Assembly (NCBI RefSeq): GCF_026586805.1
Contig: NZ_JAPFHA010000002.1
Location: 62,001 to 126,000 of the forward strand
Direction: 5' to 3'
Length of the DNA stretch: 64,000 nucleotides
Origin: Niveibacterium sp. 24ML
Lineage (GTDB): Bacteria; Pseudomonadota; Gammaproteobacteria; Burkholderiales; Rhodocyclaceae
Numbering within the stretch: position 1 is the stretch's first letter; every line of letters starts with the position of its first letter. Positions 30,109 to 41,481 of the stretch are shown piece after piece. The notes beneath the pieces are model-generated. The model was not told where the DNA came from, ran no database searches, and saw only the letters and a program-made list of their open reading frames with translations. A program made the position numbers and the translations under genes.

Positions 30109-30942
30109 CTATCCCGCCGCCGCGCCGAGGGACTTGCGGAAGCGGTTGAGGTCTTGCGCGGTCTCGAAGGCCTGGCCGAAAAGGCTCGATAGATTGCGCA
30201 GGATGCCGCCGATGACGCGGGCCTCCTGTTCGCGGCCGAACTGGATCTGTTCCGAGAGCCAGTGCTCCAGCCAGGCTGGATTCGGCAGCCGCGACTGGAT
30301 CGTGTCGTTCGGGAACAGGCCCTGATTGACATGCAGGTTCGTCGGGTGCAGCGGTTTGCCGCTGCGCGCCGAGCTGGCCATCAAGACGCCGATCTTTGCG
30401 AAGGCGGCGCGCGCGGTGTCGCCCGCACGGTCGATCGCCTGCTTCATGTACTTGAGGTAGGCGCCACCATGGCGGGCCTCATCGCGCGAGAGCAGGTCGT
30501 AGATCTTCTTGATGACCGGCTCGGAATGCCATTCGGATGCCCGCCGATACCATTGGGTCAGGCGTAATTCGCCGCAGAAATGCAGCATCAGGGTTTCGAG
30601 GGGCGGCGCCGGGTCGAATTCAAAGCGGACCGCGTGCAGCTCTTCTTCGCTCGGGCTCAGTTCGGGGCGGAAGCGCCGCAGGTATTCCATCAGGACCAGG
30701 GCGTGCTTCTGCTCTTCGTAGAACCAGATCGACATGAAGGCGGAAAAGTCCGAGTCCTCGCGGTTGTCGCGCAGGAACATTTCGGTGGCGGGCAGCGCGG
30801 ACCATTCGGTGATGGCGTTCATCTTCACCGTCAGCGCCTGTTCTTCGCTGAGCAGGCCGGGATCGAAGCGGTCCCACGGCACGTCCCGCTCCAAGCTCCA
30901 GCGCGCAGATTCGAGCGATTTGTACAGTTCGGGATACAGCAT
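30109..30942 (-). CDS. Ferritin-like diiron protein of unknown function
   Basis: A 277-residue soluble helical protein; ATG 30942 has a GGAGA ribosome site. It shows a complete diiron carboxylate pattern: E46, then E77-Q-K-H80; E125, then E155-A-R-H158, with 30-31 residues inside each pair. This resembles acyl-ACP desaturases and other O2-activating diiron oxidases more than storage ferritins. It lies 73 bp after the B12-type MerR gene on the same strand, so it should be co-transcribed with it. I infer an oxidase acting on lipids made by the divergent operon; the substrate is unproven. Confidence 0.75.
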   Translation of the reverse strand: MLYPELYKSLESARWSLERDVPWDRFDPGLLSEEQALTVKMNAITEWSALPATEMFLRDNREDSDFSAFMSIWFYEEQKHALVLMEYLRRFRPELSPSEEELHAVRFEFDPAPPLETLMLHFCGELRLTQWYRRASEWHSEPVIKKIYDLLSRDEARHGGAYLKYMKQAIDRAGDTARAAFAKIGVLMASSARSGKPLHPTNLHVNQGLFPNDTIQSRLPNPAWLEHWLSEQIQFGREQEARVIGGILRNLSSLFGQAFETAQDLNRFRKSLGAAAG

Positions 30943-31015
30943 GATGGGGGTCTCCAGGGGCGGGCGCAGCCTGGCGAGCGGGAGGCTCAATCCGGAGGCG
31001 GCCGGGCAACGCGAC

Positions 31016-31927
31016 TTATTGCAGGTTCTTGTTACGCCATTCTTCCAGCGCACCGGTGGCGTCGGCAATATCGGTGATGATGCTGACCCCTGCGATGCCT
31101 GGTTTTCGCTCGGCCAGGGCGCGCCCGCCCGCCCACAGTGAGATGTTTGCGGGCAGGGTCTGGCGCAAGGCGGTGAGGCCGTCGATCGCCTGGCGGGCCG
31201 GAAAGGCGGCCGAGAACGAGAGCGCGACGATGTCGAAGCCGCCCGCCTGCGCTGCGGCGTCAATATCGGCCAGCGGCATCTGGGTGCCCAGCGAAACACA
31301 GGTGGCGCCCTCGCTCACCAGCATGGCTTCGGCCATCAGCAAACCGAGCACGTGCAGCTCATCGGGCAGGGTGGTCAGCAGCACGCGCGGGCGCGATCCG
31401 CCGCCCTGTGCGCTGATCGCATTGCGCAGGATGTTCTGCACCTGCTCGGTGTACAGATGTTCTTCCGCCACATCGATTTCGCCCCGCAGCCAGGCGCTGC
31501 CGATCATCTGATTCATGGGCGCAATGGTGCTAGTGACAAATTCCTGCAAGCCCTGCTTGAGCAATACCTGCTGCAGCGCGCGGCGTAGTTCGTCGGCGCG
31601 GTGCAGGCGCAGCAACTCGATCAAGCTGCTGCAGCGGCTTGCCGCGGCCGGGCATTCGATGCCCTTGGGCTGGTGGTTTTCAAGCAGGCGCGCCAGTTCG
31701 TCTGCGCTGGCCATGATCAGCTTGCCGGGGCGCATGCCCTGGTCGATCAAACGCTTGAGCAGACGCAGCTTGTCGACCTGGTCGGCGGGGTAGAGCCGTT
31801 CGTCATTGCTGTCGCGCTCGGGCTGCGGAAAGCCGTAACGACGCTCCCACATCCTGAGCGTGTCTTTGGGCAAGCCGGTGTCGCGTTCAACGGCGGCGAT
31901 CGAGAAAGTGCTCTGTTGCTTTTGCAT
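31016..31927 (-). CDS. CarH/LitR-type MerR regulator with B12-binding photoreceptor domain
   Basis: A 303-residue protein. The MerR HTH (about residues 7-75) has FSIAAVERDTGLPKDTLRMW and ERRYGFPQPERD. A helical B12-cap domain (about 95-175) carries W146 and E156-H157 in WLRGEIDVAEEH. The Rossmann B12-binding domain has H192 in DELHVLG, plus SLGTQ and WAGGRAL. The offsets from W to E, H and the axial-ligand H (10, 11, 46) equal those of Thermus CarH W131/E141/H142/H177. Such proteins repress in the dark as adenosylcobalamin tetramers and release DNA on light. It is divergent from the lipid operon and flanked by palindromes. Confidence 0.93.
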   Translation of the reverse strand: MQKQQSTFSIAAVERDTGLPKDTLRMWERRYGFPQPERDSNDERLYPADQVDKLRLLKRLIDQGMRPGKLIMASADELARLLENHQPKGIECPAAASRCSSLIELLRLHRADELRRALQQVLLKQGLQEFVTSTIAPMNQMIGSAWLRGEIDVAEEHLYTEQVQNILRNAISAQGGGSRPRVLLTTLPDELHVLGLLMAEAMLVSEGATCVSLGTQMPLADIDAAAQAGGFDIVALSFSAAFPARQAIDGLTALRQTLPANISLWAGGRALAERKPGIAGVSIITDIADATGALEEWRNKNLQ

Positions 31928-31930
31928 TCA

Positions 31931-31947
31931 ATTTGTCCTGGACAAAT
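31931..31947. promoter_or_regulatory. Operator palindrome 1 (regulator side)
   Basis: ATTTGTCCTGGACAAAT is a perfect 17-bp palindrome around a central base. It ends 2 bp upstream of the -35 box of the divergent operon and lies 4-20 nt before the regulator's ATG, so it also contains the regulator's AGGA ribosome site. It is a probable binding site for the CarH-like protein. Confidence 0.72.
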
Positions 31948-31949
31948 GC

Positions 31950-31978
31950 TTGACGCGTTCGATCTATGTGTCTATCTT
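31950..31978 (+). promoter_or_regulatory. Promoter of the lipid-modification operon
   Basis: TTGACG and TATCTT are separated by exactly 17 bp. The expected start is near 31985. The two palindromes lie just before the -35 and about 10 bp after the start point, a layout for tight repression. Confidence 0.7.
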
Positions 31979-31994
31979 ACGAACACGGAATCAA

Positions 31995-32009
31995 TTTGTC
32001 CAGGACAAA
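31995..32009. promoter_or_regulatory. Operator palindrome 2 (operon side)
   Basis: TTTGTCCAGGACAAA, a perfect 15-bp palindrome, same core as palindrome 1 with the other central base. The two centres are 63 bp apart, six helical turns, so both sites face the same side of the DNA. It lies immediately before the ribosome site of the 71-residue gene. Confidence 0.72.
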
Positions 32010-32020
32010 AGGTGGCGAAA

Positions 32021-32236
32021 ATGACGCAACTCAGATCGATCGCAGTCAGCCGGAAACGCTTGCTGGCCTTGGCTTCAGCCCTGGTTCTGCTGGGCGGACT
32101 GGGCTGGACCCTGGCTCACGCAGGCGAGCAAGTGTGTGCCGCAACGGCAGGTCTGGAGCATGATCGGATTCTGCTTGTCCTGCACAGCAATGGCGCCGAG
32201 GCGGCAGTGCCGCGCCTGCCCAGCCTTGCTCCTTGA
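32021..32236 (+). CDS. 71-residue single-span membrane protein, first gene of the lipid operon
   Basis: The ATG at 32021 has an AGGTGG ribosome site 5 nt upstream. The protein has a basic N-terminus (RKR at about 11-13), one hydrophobic segment (LLALASALVLLGGLGWTLA, about 14-32) and a short periplasmic tail with one cysteine near residue 38. The segment could be a signal peptide with cleavage after AHA, giving a secreted peptide of about 38 residues. I do not recognise the family. Its position between operator and FAD enzyme implies co-regulation by light. Confidence 0.65.
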   Translation: MTQLRSIAVSRKRLLALASALVLLGGLGWTLAHAGEQVCAATAGLEHDRILLVLHSNGAEAAVPRLPSLAP

Positions 32237-32269
32237 TCCGGCCGCAGCGCAAACACGGGGAAGCCGACA

Positions 32270-33607
32270 ATGAAGATGGGTGAATTCAACGCTCGCATGC
32301 TCGATCAAGGCAGCCGGCAGCGGATTGCGGTGGTGGGCTCTGGCATTGCCGGGCTCGGTGCGGCCTGGCTGCTGCGTAACCATCACGACGTCGTGCTGTT
32401 TGAAGCGGCGCCGCGGCTGGGAGGCCACACCAACACGGTGGATGTGAGCCTGGATGGCATCACGCATGGTGTGGATACCGGCTTCCTGGTGTTCAACCGC
32501 CGTACCTACCCGAACCTTTGCGCCTTGTTTGCCGAACTGGATGTGCCGGTGACCACCAGCGACATGAGCTTTGCCGTCAGCGTGAGCGAGCCGGATATCG
32601 AATGGGCTGGCAGCAATCTGGCAAGCGTGTTTGCGCAGAAGCGCAATCTGACGAGGCCTGCCTTCTGGCGCATGCTGCAAGACATCGTGCGCTTCAATCG
32701 CGAAACCACGCAGGCTGCACGCGAACACTCGCTACCGGCGATCTCGCTGGGCGACTATCTCGATCGCAACCGTTACGGCGCGGAGTTCCGCGACTGGTAC
32801 CTGGTGCCGATGGCGGCGGCGATCTGGTCTTGCCCGCCGCGCACCATGCTTGAATACCCGGTCGCGACCTTCCTGCACTTCTGCCATAACCACGGCCTGC
32901 TCAAGGTCACCGATCGGCCGCAGTGGATGACGGTGAATGGCGGCGCGCGCGAGTATGTGCGCCGCATCGCCGCGCAGCTGCCGGATATCCGCCTCAGTAC
33001 GCCGGTGGCCGGCGTGCGCCGCGAGGCGGGCAAGGTCGAGCTGCTCACCGCCGCCGGCGCGGAGGTCTTCGACCAAGTGGTCTTCGCCTGCCATTCCGAT
33101 CAGACGCTCGCGATCCTTGGCGGTGCCGCAACGCCACTGGAGCGTTCGGTGCTTGGCGCGGTGCGTTACCAGCCCAATCGTGCCCTGCTGCATACCGACC
33201 CGGCCTTGCTGCCGCGCCGGCGAAGCACCTGGAGCGCATGGAACTACGCATCGAGCGCGGGCGCTTCGGCCGATCGCTCGGTGGCCGTGTCCTACCTCAT
33301 CAACCAGTTGCAGCCCCTGCCGTGGAAGGCGCCGGTGGTGGTGTCGCTCAACCCGTTCCGCGAGCCCGCGCCCGAGCATCTGATTGCCGAGATCGACTAC
33401 GCCCACCCGGTGTTCGATGCGGCGGCGGTGGCGGCGCAAGCGCATCTGCCGATGCTGCAGGGGCGCAACCACACCTGGTTCTGCGGTGCCTGGACGGGCT
33501 ACGGCTTCCATGAAGACGGGCTGCGCTCTGCGGTGGATGTGTGCGGCATGATCGGCGCGGTCGCGCCCTGGAAGGCGCAACCCTTGCGTGAGCAGGTGCT
33601 TGCATGA
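32270..33607 (+). CDS. FAD-dependent amine-oxidase-like oxidoreductase
   Basis: A 445-residue flavoprotein. The FAD dinucleotide motif IAVVGSGIAGLGAAWLLR lies near residue 18, followed by E45 in LFEAAPRLGGHTNT. The C-terminal FAD site is NHTWFCGAWTGYGFHEDGL. The family is annotated as NAD/FAD-binding or amine oxidase, and in many proteobacteria it is fixed next to DUF1365 and a Cfa-like enzyme. Related flavoproteins in the bacterial furan-fatty-acid pathway desaturate methylated acyl chains; that role here is an inference. Its stop overlaps the next start (ATGA), so the pair is coupled. Confidence 0.87.
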   Translation: MKMGEFNARMLDQGSRQRIAVVGSGIAGLGAAWLLRNHHDVVLFEAAPRLGGHTNTVDVSLDGITHGVDTGFLVFNRRTYPNLCALFAELDVPVTTSDMSFAVSVSEPDIEWAGSNLASVFAQKRNLTRPAFWRMLQDIVRFNRETTQAAREHSLPAISLGDYLDRNRYGAEFRDWYLVPMAAAIWSCPPRTMLEYPVATFLHFCHNHGLLKVTDRPQWMTVNGGAREYVRRIAAQLPDIRLSTPVAGVRREAGKVELLTAAGAEVFDQVVFACHSDQTLAILGGAATPLERSVLGAVRYQPNRALLHTDPALLPRRRSTWSAWNYASSAGASADRSVAVSYLINQLQPLPWKAPVVVSLNPFREPAPEHLIAEIDYAHPVFDAAAVAAQAHLPMLQGRNHTWFCGAWTGYGFHEDGLRSAVDVCGMIGAVAPWKAQPLREQVLA

Positions 33608-34377
33608 ACGGCGGCGCCGAGGCAGCCCTCTGCGTGGGTGGCGTGATGCACGCGCGCCACTGGCCGGTGGGGCACCGCTTCGCTTACCCGCTTGCCTGGG
33701 TGCGGCTGCCATTGTCGAAGCTCGATACGCTGGGTAATGCGCTGTTCGGGGTGGAGCGGGCGCGGGTCTTTTCCTTCCGCAACCGCGACCATGGCGCGCG
33801 CGATGGCAGCCCGCTGCTGCCTTGGATTCAGGACTTGCTGGCCCGCCACGGACTGGCCGCGGCCTGCGATGGCGAAGTGGTGCTGCAGACCTTCCCGCGC
33901 CTGTTCGGTTTTGTCTTCAACCCGGTGAGCTTCTGGTATTGCCATGATCGGGACGGTGCGCTGCGCGCGGTGCTGTGCGAGGTCAGCAATACCTTTGGCG
34001 AGCGCCACAATTACCTTGTTGCGCATCCCGATGGCCGCCCGATCACCAGCGCAGATCGCTTCCGTTCGAGCAAGGTCTTCCATGTGTCGCCCTTCTTTCC
34101 GGTGCGCGGCGAGTACGAATTCCGCTTTGTCCAACGCGGCAAGATCGCCAGCGTGTCGATCGACCTCTTCGACGGCGGCCGCCACCAACTCACCACCCGC
34201 TTGAGCGGGCGCGCCGGCGCGCTGTCGCCTGCTGCACTGGCGCGCGCCGCGCTGCGCTTTCCGCTGCTGACGCTGGGCGTTGTCGTTCGTATTCACTGGC
34301 AGGCGCTCAAGCTGTTCGCCAAGCGTGTGCCCTTTCACCGAAAACCCGTGCCGCCCCTTCAGGAGACGACTTCATGA
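33604..34377 (+). CDS. DUF1365 family protein
   Basis: A 257-residue protein with the family core: GVMHARHWPVGHRFAYPL at the N-terminus, LFGFVFNPVSFWYCHDRDG in the middle, and FHVSPFFPVRGEYEFRF. It has no signal peptide or clear catalytic motif; conserved histidines and aromatic residues suggest lipid or cofactor contact. The family almost always accompanies an FAD oxidoreductase and a Cfa-type methyltransferase. It overlaps both neighbours by four bases. The function is not established. Confidence 0.87.
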   Translation: MNGGAEAALCVGGVMHARHWPVGHRFAYPLAWVRLPLSKLDTLGNALFGVERARVFSFRNRDHGARDGSPLLPWIQDLLARHGLAAACDGEVVLQTFPRLFGFVFNPVSFWYCHDRDGALRAVLCEVSNTFGERHNYLVAHPDGRPITSADRFRSSKVFHVSPFFPVRGEYEFRFVQRGKIASVSIDLFDGGRHQLTTRLSGRAGALSPAALARAALRFPLLTLGVVVRIHWQALKLFAKRVPFHRKPVPPLQETTS

Positions 34378-35585
34378 GCGCTATTGAAAACACCCTCGCT
34401 TCCGGCCGTTTCGAACTGCTGCCCGGCCCGGCCAACGCCGTCATCAAGATGCTTGGCGCAATCCGCGGTGGCAGCCTGGAGCTGGCCTTGCCCAATGGCG
34501 AACGCGTTGTTGCGGGTGAGGGCCACCGCGTGGCGAGTTTCGAAGTTGGCGACTGGGGCGTTTTCGAAACCCTGATCGCAAAGGGTTCGATCGGCCTGGC
34601 CGAAGACTTCATCAACGGCCTCTGGCGCACCGACAACCTGACTGGCCTGCTGACCCTGGCGGCGCAGAATCGCGACGCCATGAGCCGTGCGATTCACGGC
34701 AATGCGCTGCGCCTGCTGGGCTACAAGATCTGGCACGGCCTGCGGGCCAACACCCGCAAGGGCGCCCGCCGCAATATCGAGGCGCACTACGATTTGGGCA
34801 ACGATTTCTACAGCCTGTGGCTGGACGAAACGATGACCTACTCAAGCGCGCTGTTTGCCGACCCGCACCAGCCGCTGGCCGATGCGCAGCGCGCCAAGTA
34901 CCGCCGCATCCTCGATCAGCTCGACGCCAAATCGGGCCAGCGCATTCTGGAAGTGGGCTGCGGTTGGGGGGGGTTCGCCGAAGTCGCAACGCTTGAATAC
35001 GGCTGCGAGGTGCTCGGGCTCACGCTCTCGCCCGCGCAGCTGAAGTTTGCGCGTGAGCGCGCCGAACGCGTTGGCTTTGCCGACAAGGCCGACTTCGAGC
35101 TGTGCGACTACCGTGACGTGCGCGGCCATTACGATCACATTGTTTCGATCGAGATGTACGAAGCCGTGGGCGAGCGTTTCTGGCCTTCCTACTTCCAGCA
35201 GTTGCATGATCGACTGGCACCCGGCGGCCGCATCGTGATCCAGGCGATCACGATTGACGACAATCTGTTCGGCTTCTACCGCAAGAATCCGGACTTCATC
35301 CAGCGCTACATTTTCCCCGGCGGCATGCTCGCTTCGCCGGGCACGATCGAGCGCCTGGCCAAGCGCTCCGGTCTGGCGATCGTCGATGATCTGGCCTTCG
35401 GTCTGGACTACGCACGCACCCTGGCGGTGTGGCACGAGCGCTTCAACGCCGTGCGCGAGCAGGTGCACGCGCAGGGCTTTGACGAGCGTTTCGTGCGCCT
35501 GTGGCAGTTCTATCTGTCGTACTGCGAGGCTGGTTTCCGTGCCGGCTCGACCGACGTGCATCACTACGCGTTTGCGCGCGCCTGA
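34374..35585 (+). CDS. cfa: Cyclopropane-fatty-acyl-phospholipid synthase family methyltransferase
   Basis: A 403-residue protein starting in the ATGA overlap. The SAM site is QRILEVGCGWGGFAEVAT near residue 190, preceded by AHYDLGNDFYSLWLDETMTYS, the Cfa signature, and followed by YIFPGGMLASPG and YCEAGFRAGSTDVHHY near the end. Cfa enzymes add a methylene, or in some relatives a methyl group, to the double bond of phospholipid acyl chains. The operon context (FAD enzyme, DUF1365) fits the branch that makes methylated fatty acids as well as true cyclopropane synthesis; sequence alone does not decide. Confidence 0.9.
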   Translation: MSAIENTLASGRFELLPGPANAVIKMLGAIRGGSLELALPNGERVVAGEGHRVASFEVGDWGVFETLIAKGSIGLAEDFINGLWRTDNLTGLLTLAAQNRDAMSRAIHGNALRLLGYKIWHGLRANTRKGARRNIEAHYDLGNDFYSLWLDETMTYSSALFADPHQPLADAQRAKYRRILDQLDAKSGQRILEVGCGWGGFAEVATLEYGCEVLGLTLSPAQLKFARERAERVGFADKADFELCDYRDVRGHYDHIVSIEMYEAVGERFWPSYFQQLHDRLAPGGRIVIQAITIDDNLFGFYRKNPDFIQRYIFPGGMLASPGTIERLAKRSGLAIVDDLAFGLDYARTLAVWHERFNAVREQVHAQGFDERFVRLWQFYLSYCEAGFRAGSTDVHHYAFARA

Positions 35586-35595
35586 GGGGGCGGCC

Positions 35596-36138
35596 ATGTT
35601 GCGCATCCGTCTGCTCATGAGTCTGTTGTGTGCGGCGCTGGCGCTGCCGGTAGCGGCCACTGCATCGAACACCGCGCTGCCTGAGGCCGTGCGCACGCTG
35701 GCGCCGGACTGGCGCCAGCTGGGCAGCGGCGAGATGAGCTGGTTTGGTCTGCGGCTCTACGACGCGCAGCTCTGGGGTAGCGCTGCAAGCTTCTCGCCCG
35801 CGTCGCCCTATGCCTTGCACCTGACCTATGCGCGCGATTTCTCTGCCGAGCGCCTGGCCGACACCAGCATCGACGAGATGCGCCGCCTTGGCACGCGCGA
35901 CGAGGCAACCCTCGCGCGCTGGCGCGCCGAGCTGGGCCGCGTGTTTCCGGAAGTCAAACGGGGTGACGTGATCGTCGGCGTGCACCTGCCCGATCGCGGC
36001 GCGCGTTTCTACCACCAGGGCAAACTTACCGGCGAGGTGAACGACCCCGCTTTCGCGCGGGCCTTCTTCGCCATCTGGCTCGACCCCCGCACCCGCGCGC
36101 CCGAGCTGCGAACGCGCTTGCTGGGCAGCGCATCATGA
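35596..36138 (+). CDS. Chalcone isomerase-like periplasmic protein
   Basis: A 180-residue protein with a clear signal peptide (LRIRLLMSLLCAALALPVAATA). The mature part matches the bacterial chalcone-isomerase-like family: the fold pattern GLRLYDAQLWGS, then YARDFSAERLADTS, and VGVHLPDRGARFYHQGKLTGEV. Family members bind fatty-acid-like ligands in plants; bacterial ones have no proven activity. It begins 10 bp after cfa and overlaps the MFS gene by four bases. A lipid-binding role in the envelope is plausible. Confidence 0.8.
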   Translation: MLRIRLLMSLLCAALALPVAATASNTALPEAVRTLAPDWRQLGSGEMSWFGLRLYDAQLWGSAASFSPASPYALHLTYARDFSAERLADTSIDEMRRLGTRDEATLARWRAELGRVFPEVKRGDVIVGVHLPDRGARFYHQGKLTGEVNDPAFARAFFAIWLDPRTRAPELRTRLLGSAS

Positions 36139-37430
36139 CGCGTACCGCAGCGGCCCTTGCGCCGCCGGGCTTGCTGCGGATTGGTGATTTGCTTGCCTAT
36201 GGTGCGCTGGCCGTACCGCTCGCGTTTGCGGCACTGCCGCTGTATGTGCACGTGCCCAAGCTGTACGTCGACACGGTGGGCCTCTCGCTCAGCCTGGTCG
36301 GTGCGGTGCTGTTGGCCGCGCGCCTGGGGGATGCGGTGGCCGACCCGCTTTTCGGCTTGTGGAGCGATCGCCTGCAACGGCGCCGCGGCCTTACGCTGAT
36401 TGCGCTACCGCTGCTGGTGCTGGGCATGTTCGGCTTGCTGCGCCCGCCTGAAGGCGCTGGCGTTGCCTGGCTGGCGGCGATGCTGGTGCTCGCCTACACC
36501 GGCTATTCCTTGTCGAGCGTGAACTACTACGCCTGGGGCGCAGAGGCGGGGGCAAGCTCGGCGGGCCGTACCGGGCTGACCGCTGCGCGCGAAGGCTGTG
36601 CCCTGCTCGGCGTGGTGCTCGCATCGGCTTTGCCGGAGCTGCTGGCGCCCACCCAGGCGCAAGGGCTTGAGCGCATGCTCTGGATCTTTGTGCCGCTGGT
36701 GCTGGTGAGCGCGTGGCTCGCAGCACGCTATGCGCCTGCGCCGCGGCCGCTCAGGCCGGTGCGGTCCGGCGCCAGCATGTTCCAGCAGGGCTTGATCCCT
36801 TTGCGCGACCGGCCGGTGCTCGCACTGCTCGCGGTTTACGCCCTCAACGGAATTGCTGCGGCGATTCCGGCGACCATCTTTCTGTTCTTCGTGGCCGATG
36901 TGCTAGACCGCGAGCGCTTGTCCGGCCTCTTCCTCGCCGCTTACTTCGTCAGTGGAGCGGCCGCCTTGCCGCTATGGGTGAAGCTGGCCGGGCGCACGGG
37001 CAAGGTGCGCGCCTGGCTGCTTTCGATGTGCGTGGCCGGACTGGCGTTTGGCTGGGCGGTGAGCTTGGGGGAGGGCGACGTCGCGGCCTTTTTTGCGATC
37101 TGCGTGCTGTCGGGCATCGCGTTGGGGGCCGACATCACCTTTCCGCCCGCCCTGCTGGCCGATGCGCTGGCGCAACCGTCGCGCGCTTCGGCCGGCGGCG
37201 TCTACTTCGGCTGGTGGAACCTTGTCACCAAGCTCAACCTTGCGCTTGCTGCAGGCATCGCCTTGCCCTTGCTTGATCTGCTCGGCTACCAGCCCGGCGT
37301 GCGAGATGCCGCGGCGCTGAGCGCACTGGCAATCGTCTACGCGATCGCACCAATCATCCTCAAAGCCTTTGCTGCACTGCTGCTGTGGCGCGTGCAGGCC
37401 CGAATCGAAACAGACGGAGTCTCACGATGA
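36135..37430 (+). CDS. MFS transporter, glycoside-pentoside-hexuronide-like
   Basis: A 431-residue protein with about twelve membrane segments. Features of the MFS_2 group are visible: AARLGDAVADPLFGLWSDR in the loop 2-3 region near residue 65 and the later ALGADITFPPALLADA-like stretch (here GIALGADITFPPALLADAL). MFS_2 members include sugar symporters and lysophospholipid flippases such as LplT relatives and MFSD2A. In this operon a lipid substrate is an attractive guess. It overlaps both neighbours by four bases. Confidence 0.83.
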   Translation: MTRTAAALAPPGLLRIGDLLAYGALAVPLAFAALPLYVHVPKLYVDTVGLSLSLVGAVLLAARLGDAVADPLFGLWSDRLQRRRGLTLIALPLLVLGMFGLLRPPEGAGVAWLAAMLVLAYTGYSLSSVNYYAWGAEAGASSAGRTGLTAAREGCALLGVVLASALPELLAPTQAQGLERMLWIFVPLVLVSAWLAARYAPAPRPLRPVRSGASMFQQGLIPLRDRPVLALLAVYALNGIAAAIPATIFLFFVADVLDRERLSGLFLAAYFVSGAAALPLWVKLAGRTGKVRAWLLSMCVAGLAFGWAVSLGEGDVAAFFAICVLSGIALGADITFPPALLADALAQPSRASAGGVYFGWWNLVTKLNLALAAGIALPLLDLLGYQPGVRDAAALSALAIVYAIAPIILKAFAALLLWRVQARIETDGVSR

Positions 37431-37951
37431 AACGCTTGTTGATTGTCCTGATGACGGTCTTCTTCCTTGCAGGCTGCGCGAGCGTCGATGTGGCGGACTA
37501 CCGCAACGAGAAGCCGGTGCTCGATCTGCAGACTTACTTCAACGGTACGGTGGATGCGTGGGGCGTGTTCCAGGACCGCTCCGGCAAGGTCGTCAAACGC
37601 TTTCATGTGGTGATCGAGTCGAGCTGGCAAGGCAAGGTCGGTACGCTCGATGAGCGTTTCGTGTATTCCGACGGCACGACGCAACGCCGTGTCTGGACGG
37701 TGACAAAGCACGACAGCGGCCGATACACTGGCCGTGCCGACGACGTTGTGGGCGAAGCGCAGGGCGAGGCGCAGGGCAACGCCCTGCGCTGGCGCTACAC
37801 GCTGGCCTTGCCGGTGGATGGAACGGTGTACAACGTCGAGTTCGACGACTGGATGTTCCTGATGGATGACAAGACGATGCTGAACCGTTCGTTCATGAGC
37901 AAGTTCGGCGTCGAGCTCGGGCAGGTCACGCTGAGCTTCCGAAAGCGCTGA
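37427..37951 (+). CDS. DUF3833 family lipoprotein
   Basis: A 174-residue lipoprotein: the signal peptide MKRLLIVLMTVFFLAGC ends in a lipobox with the acylated cysteine at residue 17. The mature domain has the DUF3833 pattern LDLQTYFNGTVDAWGVFQDRSGKVVKRF and the terminal DWMFLMDDKTMLNRS. It is predicted to be periplasmic and anchored by lipid. The family is almost confined to this type of operon and has no known biochemical role. It is fused to the flow of the operon by ATGA overlap upstream and 5 bp to the SDR downstream. Confidence 0.87.
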   Translation: MKRLLIVLMTVFFLAGCASVDVADYRNEKPVLDLQTYFNGTVDAWGVFQDRSGKVVKRFHVVIESSWQGKVGTLDERFVYSDGTTQRRVWTVTKHDSGRYTGRADDVVGEAQGEAQGNALRWRYTLALPVDGTVYNVEFDDWMFLMDDKTMLNRSFMSKFGVELGQVTLSFRKR

Positions 37952-37956
37952 CAGAT

Positions 37957-38730
37957 ATGGCGATGAACGAACCGATTCGGGACTGGCGCGGCAAGCGCGT
38001 CTGGATAGTGGGCGCGTCCACCGGCATTGGCGCCGCCTTGGCGGAGGACTTGGCTGCGCGCGGCGCGCACCTGGCGCTCTCGGCGCGCCGCGTCGAACGT
38101 CTGCAAGCCTTTGTGGATCGACTCCCTGGCAGCGTCGCGATCCCGCTCGACGTGGCCGAGCACCAGACCCTGATGCCAGCCTTGCTCCAGCTGCTGGATC
38201 TGTGGGGCGGCATCGATGTGGTGATCTTCAATGCTGGGACCTATGCGCCGATGCGGGCGTGGGATCTGACGGTGGAAGGCGCGCGGACCACCTTCGAGAT
38301 CAATCTGATGGGCGTCATCAATGGCGTTGCCGCCGTGCTGCCGCAGTTCCTGCAGCAAGGCGAGGGCGCCATCGTCATCGTCGGCAGCGTGGCGGGCTAT
38401 CGTGGCTTGCCAAAGGCGCTCGCTTATGGGGCCTCGAAAGCGGCAGTGATCAACTTCGCCGAGTCGCTGTACATGGACCTTGCCCCGCGCGGCGTGAGTG
38501 TGTTTCTGGTGAACCCGGGCTTCGTCGAAACCCCGCTGACCGCCAAGAACAAATTCCGCATGCCTGCGCTGATCAGCGCGGCCGAAGCTTCACGCCAGAT
38601 CCTGCAAGGCATGGCGCGCGGACGCTTCGAGATCCACTTCCCGCGACGCTTCACCTTGATGCTCAAGGCCATGCGTTTCCTGCCCGAATGGATCTACCTG
38701 CGCGCGGTCCGCCGTGCAACCGGCACATGA
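37957..38730 (+). CDS. Short-chain dehydrogenase/reductase
   Basis: A 257-residue classical SDR. The NAD(P) motif is VWIVGASTGIGAALAEDLA near residue 15, with NAG at about 91, the catalytic serine in IVIVGSVAGYRG and the YGASKAA motif Y152-x3-K156 (approximate numbering). Start choice between 37957 and 37963 is open. SDRs in these operons are believed to act on fatty acyl or polyketide-like carbonyls, but the substrate is unknown. It ends with an ATGA overlap into the NTF2-like gene. Confidence 0.87.
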   Translation: MAMNEPIRDWRGKRVWIVGASTGIGAALAEDLAARGAHLALSARRVERLQAFVDRLPGSVAIPLDVAEHQTLMPALLQLLDLWGGIDVVIFNAGTYAPMRAWDLTVEGARTTFEINLMGVINGVAAVLPQFLQQGEGAIVIVGSVAGYRGLPKALAYGASKAAVINFAESLYMDLAPRGVSVFLVNPGFVETPLTAKNKFRMPALISAAEASRQILQGMARGRFEIHFPRRFTLMLKAMRFLPEWIYLRAVRRATGT

Positions 38731-39164
38731 ACACCGGTGCAGCGCTGGCAGAGCTGGTGATTGCCTACGAGGGCTTGAGCGCGCAGAACACGGCTGCGCT
38801 GGCGGCCCGCTATGCGCCCGAAGCTCGCTTCAAGGATCCATTCAACGAGGTGCAGGGGCGCGCGGCGATCGAGCGGATCTTCATCCACATGTTCGAGCAG
38901 GTCGATGCGCCCCGGTTTTGCGTGACCGGTCAGTTCCCCGGCGACGGGGCGGCGATGCTGACCTGGGAATTCCACTTACGCTTTCGCGGTGAAGCGCAGG
39001 CGCGAGTGATTCGCGGCGCCAGTCACCTGCGCTTCGATGCGCAAGGCCTGGTGACCGATCACCGCGATTACTGGGATGCCGCTGAAGAGTTGTACGCCCA
39101 GATTCCGCTGCTGGGCGCGCTGATGCGTTGGCTGCGGCGCCGCCTCGCGACGCCGCAGCACTGA
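38727..39164 (+). CDS. Nuclear transport factor 2 / SnoaL-like protein
   Basis: A 145-residue cone-fold protein. The core YEGLSAQNTAALAARYAPEARFKDPFNEVQG and VTDHRDYWDAAEELY fit the SnoaL/NTF2 superfamily, in which a pocket binds hydrophobic ligands or catalyses isomerisation. There is no signal peptide. It is the ninth and last gene of the photoreceptor-linked operon; the convergent channel gene stops 5 bp further on. Confidence 0.8.
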   Translation: MNTGAALAELVIAYEGLSAQNTAALAARYAPEARFKDPFNEVQGRAAIERIFIHMFEQVDAPRFCVTGQFPGDGAAMLTWEFHLRFRGEAQARVIRGASHLRFDAQGLVTDHRDYWDAAEELYAQIPLLGALMRWLRRRLATPQH

Positions 39165-39168
39165 TCGA

Positions 39169-40002
39169 TCAGTTGCTACCCGCCACTTTCGGCGTCTTGC
39201 GCGGCGGCAACTCGCGCGCCGCTTCGGCAGCTTCTGCCATGTCCATCTGTTCTGGGCTCAGGTAGCGGTAGGCCAGACCAACGAAGACCGCGCCGCCGAT
39301 CACATTCCCCAGGGTGCTGAACACCAGATTGAACAAGGCTTCCTGGATGGTGAGCCCACCGTGGCTCATGATGGCCATCGAGAAGGTGCCCATGTTGGCG
39401 ATCGAGTGCTCAAAGCCGAGGTAGAGAAAGATGAATACCACCAGGATCATCGCGATCATCTTGGTGAAGTCTTCCTTGACCTGAAGCGCGACCCACACCG
39501 CCAGGCACACGACCCAGTTCGCCAGGATGCCCTTGAAGAAGATCACTTGCGCGCTCTGGTGGACCTTATGCACCGCACCCTGGTTGAGCGCATGCTCGGG
39601 CGGCAGCGCATCGAGTACGCCCGCGCCGTAGAGCAGGCCCGTCAGGATGAGTGCGCCCACCAGATTGCCGAAGTAGCACACGATCCACAGTTCGATCATC
39701 TGCCCCCAGGACGTCTTGCCCTCGGCCGAAGACACCGCGAGGTACATGTTGTTGCTGGTGAAGAGTTCAGAGTTCGTGAACACGATGATCGACAGACCCA
39801 CGCCGAAAAACAGGCTTGCCAGCACCTTGCCGAAAGGCGAATCGTGCAGGTTGTTCAGCAGCGACCAATACACCAGCACGACGATCGACAGGTACATGCC
39901 GGCGAGCACAGCCCGCATGATGTACCGCCCCGGATCTTCTTCCAGTAGCGAGATTTTGCGCAGGCCACTTGCGGCCGACTTTTCAACGATTGGACGTTCC
40001 AT
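39169..40002 (-). CDS. Formate/nitrite transporter (FNT) family channel
   Basis: A 277-residue protein; ATG 40002 has AGGAA upstream. It has six membrane segments and the FNT motifs NSELFTSNNMYLAV near residue 85, NWVVCLAVWVALQ near 170 and GFEHSIANMGTFSMA near 210, where the histidine gates anion transport. FocA carries formate and NirC nitrite; residues visible here do not separate them, though the fermentative neighbours favour formate. It is divergent from an OFA transporter and shares a 204-bp control region with an FNR-like box. Confidence 0.87.
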   Translation of the reverse strand: MERPIVEKSAASGLRKISLLEEDPGRYIMRAVLAGMYLSIVVLVYWSLLNNLHDSPFGKVLASLFFGVGLSIIVFTNSELFTSNNMYLAVSSAEGKTSWGQMIELWIVCYFGNLVGALILTGLLYGAGVLDALPPEHALNQGAVHKVHQSAQVIFFKGILANWVVCLAVWVALQVKEDFTKMIAMILVVFIFLYLGFEHSIANMGTFSMAIMSHGGLTIQEALFNLVFSTLGNVIGGAVFVGLAYRYLSPEQMDMAEAAEAARELPPRKTPKVAGSN

Positions 40003-40113
40003 TGCGGGAGTTCCTGTTTTTCTTGGGGAGGGGCCGCTGTGCGGCTTGTGAGCACAAGTTTCCGCGCACTGTAAGTGACTGACTTTGCAGCATTTGCGCT
40101 TCTGTGGCTCTGT

Positions 40114-40127
40114 TTGATGTGCGTCAG
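40114..40127. promoter_or_regulatory. FNR/ANR-type box between the formate channel and OFA genes
   Basis: TTGAT-GTGC-GTCAG: the left half matches the FNR consensus in 5 of 5 positions and the right half in 3 of 5. Its centre lies 41.5 bp before the start point predicted from the -10 at 40150, the class II activation distance. It may also serve the divergent channel gene. Confidence 0.55.
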
Positions 40128-40149
40128 TTTGGCGGGCCGGTAGTAAAAC

Positions 40150-40155
40150 TACATT
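40150..40155 (+). promoter_or_regulatory. -10 box of the OFA transporter gene
   Basis: TACATT, with a start predicted near 40162. There is no -35 box, as expected when an FNR dimer occupies -41.5. Confidence 0.45.
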
Positions 40156-40206
40156 TATCGAGCCATAAGCAATCACATTTTCTTACAAGCCCTTGAGGAG
40201 ACATTC

Positions 40207-41481
40207 GTGAAGAATCGCTGGCTCATCGCCGCATCCGCAGTAGGCGTCCACATATCCATCGGTTCGGTTTATGCGTGGAGCGTGTTCAAGAAACCGCTCG
40301 CGCCGCTGATGGAAGCCACCCCCGGGTTCCAGACGCTCAAAGAGATCGTGCCCGATCCGATCGGTCTCGCATTTGGCCTCGCCATTCTCTTCCTTGGGCT
40401 GTCCGCTGCCGTGCTTGGGCGTTTTGTCGAGCGCAATGGCCCGCGCATCTCTGGCATGGTGTCGGCCTGCTTCTGGGCCGCCGGCCTGGCCATCTCCGGC
40501 CTCGGTGCGCTGCATGACAACCTCTGGCTCTTGCTACTCGGCTACGGCGTGGTCGGCGGAATCGGTTTGGGGGTGGGTTACATCACGCCGGTATCGACCT
40601 TGGTCAAATGGTTCCCCGACCGCCGTGGTCTGGCAACCGGTATGGCCATCATGGGCTTCGGCTTCGGTTCGCTGGTTGGTGCGCCGGTGTTTGCCAAGCT
40701 GATCGCCATGTTCGGCGTGCCGCAAACGTTCTTCATCATTGCCGCGGTTTACTTCTGCGTCATGATGGCTAGTGCGCAGTACCTTGCGGCCCCGCCCCAA
40801 GGCTGGAAGCCTGCCGGATTTGAAGACGCAATTGCCAAGGGGAAGGCCAAGGTCACCTTCGACCTGACGCAATCGACCGCAAACGAAGCCGCCAAGACCC
40901 TGCCGTTCTACGGGCTCTGGGCGATGATGTTCATCAACATCACCTGCGGTATCGGCATGATCTCGATTGCCTCGCCGATGTTCCAGGAGTTGTTCGGCAT
41001 GGAAGCGGCGGCTGCGGCCGGCATTGTGGGTACGATGGCCTTGTTCAACGGCCTGGGGCGTATCGGTTGGTCCACCGTGTCCGATCTGCTGTCGCGCCCG
41101 GTTACCTTCATCATGTTCTTCTCGATCGAGTTCCTGGCCTACCTGTCCTTGTCCGGCATGCCTGAATTCGTGATCTTCCAGGGTCTGGTGTTCCTGGTCA
41201 TGACCACCTACGGCGGCGGCTTCGCTACCCTGCCCGCATACATCGGCGACTTGTTCGGCACCAAGCAACTGGGCGCGATTCACGGTTACGTGCTGACCGC
41301 GTGGTCGCTCGCCGGTATCGTCGGCCCGCAAATCGCCGGTATGGGCAAGAAGATCGGTTATCACAACGTGCTGCTGACCTTCGTTGCGATGTACGCCGTG
41401 GCGCTGGTCGTTTCGATCCTGATGCGCCTGTACGTTGTGCGTGCGATGGCGAGCAAGCAACAATCGACCGCAGCTGTCTGA
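40207..41481 (+). CDS. OFA-family MFS transporter (oxalate/formate antiporter-like)
   Basis: A 424-residue protein from GTG 40207 with an AGGAG ribosome site. It has twelve membrane segments, beginning AASAVGVHISIGSVYAWSVF, typical for the OFA family, and the loop GYITPVSTLVKWFPDRRGLATG near residue 125. Known OFA members exchange oxalate and formate or take up lactate or pyruvate. A putative FNR site suggests use under low oxygen, for export or exchange of fermentation acids. It ends in a strong terminator. Confidence 0.87.
   Translation: MKNRWLIAASAVGVHISIGSVYAWSVFKKPLAPLMEATPGFQTLKEIVPDPIGLAFGLAILFLGLSAAVLGRFVERNGPRISGMVSACFWAAGLAISGLGALHDNLWLLLLGYGVVGGIGLGVGYITPVSTLVKWFPDRRGLATGMAIMGFGFGSLVGAPVFAKLIAMFGVPQTFFIIAAVYFCVMMASAQYLAAPPQGWKPAGFEDAIAKGKAKVTFDLTQSTANEAAKTLPFYGLWAMMFINITCGIGMISIASPMFQELFGMEAAAAAGIVGTMALFNGLGRIGWSTVSDLLSRPVTFIMFFSIEFLAYLSLSGMPEFVIFQGLVFLVMTTYGGGFATLPAYIGDLFGTKQLGAIHGYVLTAWSLAGIVGPQIAGMGKKIGYHNVLLTFVAMYAVALVVSILMRLYVVRAMASKQQSTAAV

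Follow-up and report, generated by a model that had tools for sequence, protein, structure and literature searches.

We analyzed a 64,000-nucleotide stretch of the Niveibacterium sp. 24ML genome (4.64 Mb, 99% complete), positions 62001-126000 of contig NZ_JAPFHA010000002.1 (the window, whose own numbering is used throughout), and within it a gene for a LitR/CarH-type MerR regulator with cobalamin-binding domains (31016..31927, minus strand) together with a divergent nine-gene operon whose core resembles a furan-fatty-acid pathway. The best explanation of this locus, and in our judgment a fairly probable one, is that it yields furan phospholipids in response to light and is repressed in the dark by the regulator carrying adenosylcobalamin (AdoCbl); here we infer the AdoCbl binding, the light response, the use of the promoters, the repression, the furan product and the role in the envelope from comparative evidence. 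B12 photoreceptors have mainly been described as carotenoid switches, and furan fatty acids as being under singlet-oxygen or LOV control; the module would join the two.

The N-terminus of the regulator carries a MerR_1 DNA-binding domain (E-value 3.4e-13; 49.9 bits versus a Pfam cut-off of 21.6), and the protein also exceeds the cut-off for the B12-binding_2 family (3e-6); the B12-binding family (2.1e-6) scored 28 bits, under its cut-off of 32.1 bits, and its motif residues are conserved. A comparison with Thermus CarH (PDB 3whp) gave an E-value of 5.5e-31, in which W146, E156 and H157 (the Wx9EH motif that caps the adenosyl group) and the lower-axial H192 align with their CarH counterparts. 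The first-pass annotation, made by a model from the letters alone, had placed these four residues at the CarH offsets, and this was borne out, as each is displaced by +15 from W131, E141, H142 and H177 of CarH (numbering partly from PMC10442372 and PMC4557120). The four are invariant in 61/61 regulator homologues, as are E190, G195, S237 and GG267-268. In the wording of PMC8156234 the cobalamin motif is ExHx2G-x41-SxV/T-x22-27-GG, and E190, H192, G195, S237 and GG267-268 are correctly spaced for it, with Ser239 occupying the V/T position in all 61 proteins. Because the residues of the cobalamin pocket are invariant, the regulator likely binds AdoCbl. The genome encodes a PduO-type adenosyltransferase and contains no match to the BtuR type. 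Among the matches listed, from which very near records may be omitted, the closest named record is an uncultured Uliginosibacterium (L122), with 75% regulator identity.

Two 15-bp perfect palindromes (TTTGTCCWGGACAAA) were observed in the window, where 0.04 would be expected, and both lie between the regulator and the operon: operator O1, TTTGTCCTGGACAAA (31932..31946), and operator O2, TTTGTCCAGGACAAA (31995..32009), each conserved in relatives. The first-pass annotation had not noted them. No other exact copy exists anywhere in the 4.64 Mb genome, either of the whole palindrome or of its 13-bp core, and the reversed control of the core has none at all. O1 and O2 flank two divergent sigma-70-like sites that overlap at their -10 boxes, i.e., an operon promoter-like site between the operators (TTGACG-N17-TATCTT, 31950..31978, plus strand) and a regulator promoter-like site with its -35 box inside O2 (TGGACA-N17-TAAGAT, 31974..32002, minus strand), both identified as consensus matches, in the second case by that match only; TTGAC and TATcTTA are conserved across relatives. 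We counted as an operator pair at least two sites with two or fewer mismatches within 300 bp upstream of the regulator, and by this definition 62 of the 78 loci from a scan of named records (L122-L199) have a pair, versus six of 3,699 controls taken as 330-bp windows from elsewhere in these loci.

The commonest distances between neighboring sites in the named loci are 63 bp (30 cases) and 74 bp (20 cases), about six and seven helical turns; in some loci a third site, often a weaker one, follows after another 150-180 bp. In 84 unique pairs, 71 of the O1 sites carry T at the center and 83 of the O2 sites carry A; the two operators thus keep their orientation and face each other. In the 63-bp class, the ACA of O1 is repeated 11 bp later in 30 of 53 unique loci, overlapping the -35 box (the window has ACG there), while of the 31 unique loci in the 74-bp class 21 repeat it after 11 bp and 25 after 22 bp. 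An 11-bp repeat length is known for CarH operators (PMC8156234). Based on the recurrence of ACA at 11 and 22 bp, the 74-bp form would add one 11-bp unit. In a sample of 150 family genomes including that of the window, of which 60 encode a strong regulator (E-value below 1e-60), the exact 15-mer occurs in 31, all of them among the 60 with the regulator and none among the 90 without it. Given these conserved operators, the regulator very probably controls the lipid operon, and with the conserved pocket they sustain the control proposed by the first-pass annotation, although the diiron gene that it had included in the module is not a core part of it (see below).

The arrangement itself recurs. 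We compared the named loci with 60 family loci (L043-L102), which comprise 57 of the 59 other strong matches and three weaker second copies (L100-L102), two genomes (G035 and G040) having been left out for their short contigs. The two sets overlap, with some of the same genomes in both, and share descent, and only identical stretches were removed for counts of unique loci, so these counts are not independent. A gene for the first operon enzyme, a UfaD-like FAD oxidoreductase, is divergent from the regulator in 48 of the 60 family loci and, among the 68 named loci that extend 3.5 kb or more upstream, in 60, which is more than chance. All eight operon genes are divergent in 34 of 60 family loci, some of the others being cut by short contigs. 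The 61 named loci with at least 9.5 kb upstream contain UfaD, UfaO and UfaM in 57 cases each, DUF3833 and SDR in 53, MFS in 51, CHI (chalcone-isomerase-like) in 50 and NTF2-like in 49; in L048, L127, L134 and L135 the ufa genes are on the strand of the regulator itself. Few genomes of the wider class have the regulator: nine of 369 match at an E-value of 1e-40, the window's own included.

Beyond these loci, ten extra exact sites were found in six relatives, distant from the regulator or on other contigs. Two of the ten precede photolyase genes: the site at L241:3026-3040 has a DNA_photolyase gene and a photolyase-related gene on one side and a DUF3429 gene on the other, and that at L248:3034-3048 has a DNA_photolyase gene. 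The operator before photolyase genes in these two relatives is therefore consistent with a light response. Four of the other eight lie before genes for an FAD oxidoreductase, two LytTR regulators and an esterase. At L238:3008-3022 and L239:2045-2059 the exact operator lies at or before the LytTR regulator gene, a PAS domain being present in one, and on this basis control by light may be relayed through a second regulator in these relatives. The extra site on contig C160 of genome G103 may belong to a contig that adjoins the regulator of that genome, as a gene with a similar beginning adjoins the regulator in G139. A regulon built from weak matches was rejected: the 15-mer at three or fewer mismatches gave 48 genome places versus 32 for its reversed control, and we therefore kept to sites with at most one mismatch. 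The sole one-mismatch copy in the window's genome is at C7:80726-80740 (L035:1501-1515), ~340 bp upstream of a long minus-strand open reading frame (ORF).

All of the gene map given by the first-pass annotation is present in the sequence: a diiron gene on the strand of the regulator and, divergent from the regulator, nine genes that overlap by ATGA in five places (33604, 34374, 36135, 37427 and 38727). Within the operon, adjacent plus-strand genes encode a UfaD-like FAD oxidoreductase (32270..33607; Amino_oxidase and NAD_binding_8), a UfaO-like DUF1365 protein (33604..34377; 1.9e-79) and a UfaM-like CMAS methyltransferase (34374..35585; 7.9e-85), assigned by family and gene order (for UfaD, by place and neighbors as in PMC7380195). 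UfaM, UfaD and the DUF1365 protein UfaO suffice for synthesis of the 9M5-furan fatty acid in two alphaproteobacteria, and three further genes of the Rhodobacter operon are dispensable for it (PMC7380195). DUF1365 had been called functionally undescribed by the first-pass annotation, which does not hold, since UfaO is a described member and candidate oxygenase of furan-fatty-acid synthesis (PMC7380195). We therefore see in the operon core a putative furan-fatty-acid set, UfaD-UfaO(DUF1365)-UfaM, with a predicted furan product. The operon could instead make another modified fatty acid (methylated, cyclopropane or of some other kind), since the UfaM-like protein is a CMAS homolog, apart from which the genome has just one weak, partial CMAS match, and the furan product is deduced. 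When aligned with E. coli Cfa (6bqc), this protein keeps the positions of E239 and Y317 and has Cys139 replaced by Ser, His240 by Ala and His266 by Gln; C139, E239, H266 and Y317 are site residues of Cfa. Across 46 homologs, the Cys139 position is Ser or Ala, and the Ala and Gln at the two His positions are invariant. Since 46/46 proteins have other residues at these Cys and His positions, an identity as Cfa was dropped and a cyclopropane synthase appears unlikely. These replacements and the match of the three genes to a set sufficient for the 9M5-furan fatty acid (PMC7380195) lead us to regard a product other than a furan acid as unlikely.

Several observations weigh against the light-induced furan phospholipid explanation. 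The regulator scored 135.9 bits against the NCBIfam CarH equivalog, with a cut-off of 400 bits, and for this reason we name it LitR/CarH-type and not CarH itself. The CarH H132 position, directly after W146, is Leu147 in the window regulator, and none of the 61 homologs has His there, most having Met, Leu or Glu. H132 of Thermus forms the bis-His light state; an H132A variant was mostly still tetrameric after light, though an earlier study had seen disassembly (PMC10442372). As this His is missing in all 61 homologs, a light state of the regulator, as predicted from the alignment, must differ from the bis-His state of Thermus CarH. The operator pair is missing in 16 of 78 named loci (e.g., L182 and L188, which have no site at all) and also in the class loci L118, L120 and L121, and a divergent UfaD is missing in 12 of 60 family loci, some of them on short contigs. 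Eight of the ten extra sites do not precede recognized photolyases, and in the window's genome the contigs with photolyase and folE2 have no site even at three mismatches, so that the regulon there may be this locus alone. A fully conserved pocket without the H132 switch residue would suit a regulator that senses cobalamin status and not light, repressing while AdoCbl is plentiful and releasing when it is short, and apo-CarH proteins bind DNA poorly (PMC8156234). We nonetheless judge this to be quite improbable, since other cobalamin photoreceptors with Arg, Gln or Tyr at the H132 position are still light-responsive, His not being required in all of them (PMC11796333), and since the operator stands before photolyase genes in two relatives. 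Alternatively, the repressor could be independent of B12 and driven by a photoreceptor protein or another stress signal, in the way that the class II LitR of Pseudomonas controls a ufaM cluster via a short LOV protein (PMC9758184). Class II proteins are without the second B12 domain, whereas the window regulator has it in conserved form, and we judge this alternative to be improbable as well.

If the light-induced furan phospholipid explanation is correct, AdoCbl would in the dark be bound through H192 and the W146/E156/H157 cap, and the regulator would oligomerize and occupy O1 and O2. As these operators flank overlapping divergent promoters, a single complex would silence the ufa operon and the gene of the regulator together. 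Light would cleave the Co-C bond, the regulator would leave the DNA and the operon would be transcribed. UfaM would then methylate an unsaturated phospholipid chain, after which UfaD would desaturate it and UfaO would close the furan ring with O2, and the resulting membrane lipid would protect against photo-oxidation. We speculate that the MFS_2, chalcone-isomerase-like and DUF3833 proteins move or shield the furan lipid in the envelope.

The regulator shares with CarH and the class I LitR proteins of Thermus, Bacillus and Myxococcus the MerR domain, two cobalamin subdomains, the Wx9EH and ExHxxG motifs and a hint of 11-bp operator repeats. It differs from them in having no His at the H132 position and in its operators, which are palindromes in a facing pair, and whereas mainly carotenoid genes have been described as CarH targets, the target here is a furan-fatty-acid-type operon. 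In Rhodobacter and Rhodopseudomonas the same three protein types are found in the UfaM-UfaD-UfaO pathway (PMC7380195); however, control there is by a sigma/anti-sigma (ChrR) system in place of the B12-type repressor of the window, whose operon adds CHI-like, DUF3833, NTF2-like and small-protein genes. ChrR was considered as the regulator in our case and rejected, all Cupin_7 matches being in one stand-alone two-cupin protein with no sigma factor recognized in the 3.3 kb around it (sigma-E promoters and LOV/BLUF were outside this search); a lead to a "PhrR" was likewise dropped, since in the paper found this name belongs to a TyrR-type regulator. The Pseudomonas class II LitR regulon also has a LitR-family repressor over ufaM, FAD oxidoreductase, SDR and photolyase genes, but that repressor has only the four-helix B12-binding_2 domain, is LOV-responsive and has the operator TGTACA-N12-TGTACA (PMC9758184). 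Blue light induces a Cfa-like gene in Vibrio cholerae through a response mediated by MerR and ChrR (PMC5241685). A counterpart in gene order is on plasmid pAZKH of Azoarcus sp. KH32C, where a MerR gene is divergent from FAD, DUF1365, Cfa-like, CHI, MFS, DUF3833, SDR and NTF2 genes in the same order; unlike the window locus it is on a plasmid, has no small protein annotated and was found as annotation only. A Paracoccus plasmid comparator likewise has MFS and SDR genes in one operon with ufa genes. The ufa genes adjoin sigma/anti-sigma pairs on plasmids of Paracoccus zhejiangensis (L205) and Burkholderia anthina (L204), the latter typed as conjugative, and a TetR gene in Cupriavidus; their position on plasmids beside sigma/anti-sigma pairs implies that the lipid module moves and changes regulators.

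We tentatively extend this to a broader proposal that we ourselves consider doubtful, namely that the Rhodocyclales and their neighbors have a distinct branch of B12 photoreceptors without the His132 switch, which would read facing palindromes spaced in 11-bp steps and release an envelope program, with inner-membrane furan phospholipids carried outward by MFS_2, a periplasmic CHI-like protein and a barrel lipoprotein, and led by unnamed fast-changing small exported proteins; the same lipid genes would be plugged into B12, LOV and singlet-oxygen sensors across clades. Each part is of a known kind; what appears to be new is their combination, together with the operator and the small protein: titles and abstracts of the open-access literature gave no B12-type LitR over furan-fatty-acid genes, nor this operator in Rhodocyclales, a weak negative since subscription papers were mostly uncovered. 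If the light-controlled explanation is true, the module would show how common freshwater and wastewater bacteria of the Thauera, Azoarcus, Zoogloea, Dechloromonas and Accumulibacter types meet light; it also offers for testing an operator that is short and sharply defined, a CarH-like protein that naturally lacks the His132 switch, and a proposal for the roles of the DUF3833, chalcone-isomerase-like, MFS_2 and small proteins.

The remaining operon genes, all on the plus strand, suggest an envelope lipid route. They encode a chalcone-isomerase-like protein with a signal peptide apparent by eye (35596..36138; Chalcone_3, 6.4e-12), an MFS_2 transporter (36135..37430; 5.3e-58), a DUF3833 lipoprotein with a predicted beta-barrel (37427..37951; 1.9e-73), an SDR oxidoreductase (37957..38730; adh_short, 1.5e-45) and an NTF2/SnoaL-like protein (38727..39164; SnoaL_2, 1.7e-15). 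The MFS_2 family includes lysolipid transporters. The DUF3833 model is a ten-stranded barrel (pLDDT 93.8) resembling nitrobindin, fatty-acid-binding-like and lipocalin-type proteins, a shared fold that shows no function, and its Cys17 is at a lipobox-like site and invariant in 35 homologs. Annotated lipocalins accompany the ufa genes on plasmids of Burkholderia anthina and Cupriavidus.

The first operon gene (32021..32236, plus strand) encodes a 71-residue protein with a hydrophobic N-terminal segment that matches no Pfam family. ORFs resembling it (ATG start, 40-125 residues, hydrophobic segment) begin immediately past O2 in 42 of the 104 operator-pair loci that are not identical, and 39 of the 42 have a C-terminal hydrophobic-His motif; random anchors, a weaker control than real promoters, gave 59 such ORFs in 6,000, or 18 with the motif, which was set after the first list had been viewed, so that its His is partly circular. 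The small protein thus looks like a member of a fast-changing family of predicted small exported or membrane proteins. It occupies the gap between the regulator and UfaD, where relatives often have extra ORFs, the scanned examples being one glutathione peroxidase and two FolE2 proteins; folE2 of the window's genome is on another contig. Many relatives, among them L132, L045, L189 and L186, have glutathione peroxidase and/or FolE2 genes between the operator and ufaD, in the manner of a photo-oxidative stress operon.

Downstream of the regulator on the minus strand, the FA_desaturase_2-like diiron protein (30109..30942) was given its start at ATG 30942; the frame extending to 31299 overlaps the regulator. 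It scored 29.7 bits over a Pfam cut-off of 22.7 for this acyl-ACP desaturase family, with no single stretch passing alone, and all 16 aligned members match FA_desaturase_2. Residues E46, E54, E77, H80, E125, E155 and H158 are invariant in the 16, with E77xxH80 and E155xxH158 forming ExxH motifs, and fold matches are modest (best DesA2, E-value 6.5e-4, TM 0.44). Only seven of 71 named and six of 60 family loci have the gene in the 3.5 kb that follow the regulator downstream, and in L176, L183 and L186 it is at the far end of the operon; due to this rarity beside the regulator we dropped it as a pathway member and treat it as an occasional neighbor. The protein is 70-94% identical over 15 relatives, a striking conservation. 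Downstream of the operon (39169-41481), two ORFs encode membrane proteins that by eye resemble a formate/nitrite-type channel and an oxalate/formate-type MFS carrier.

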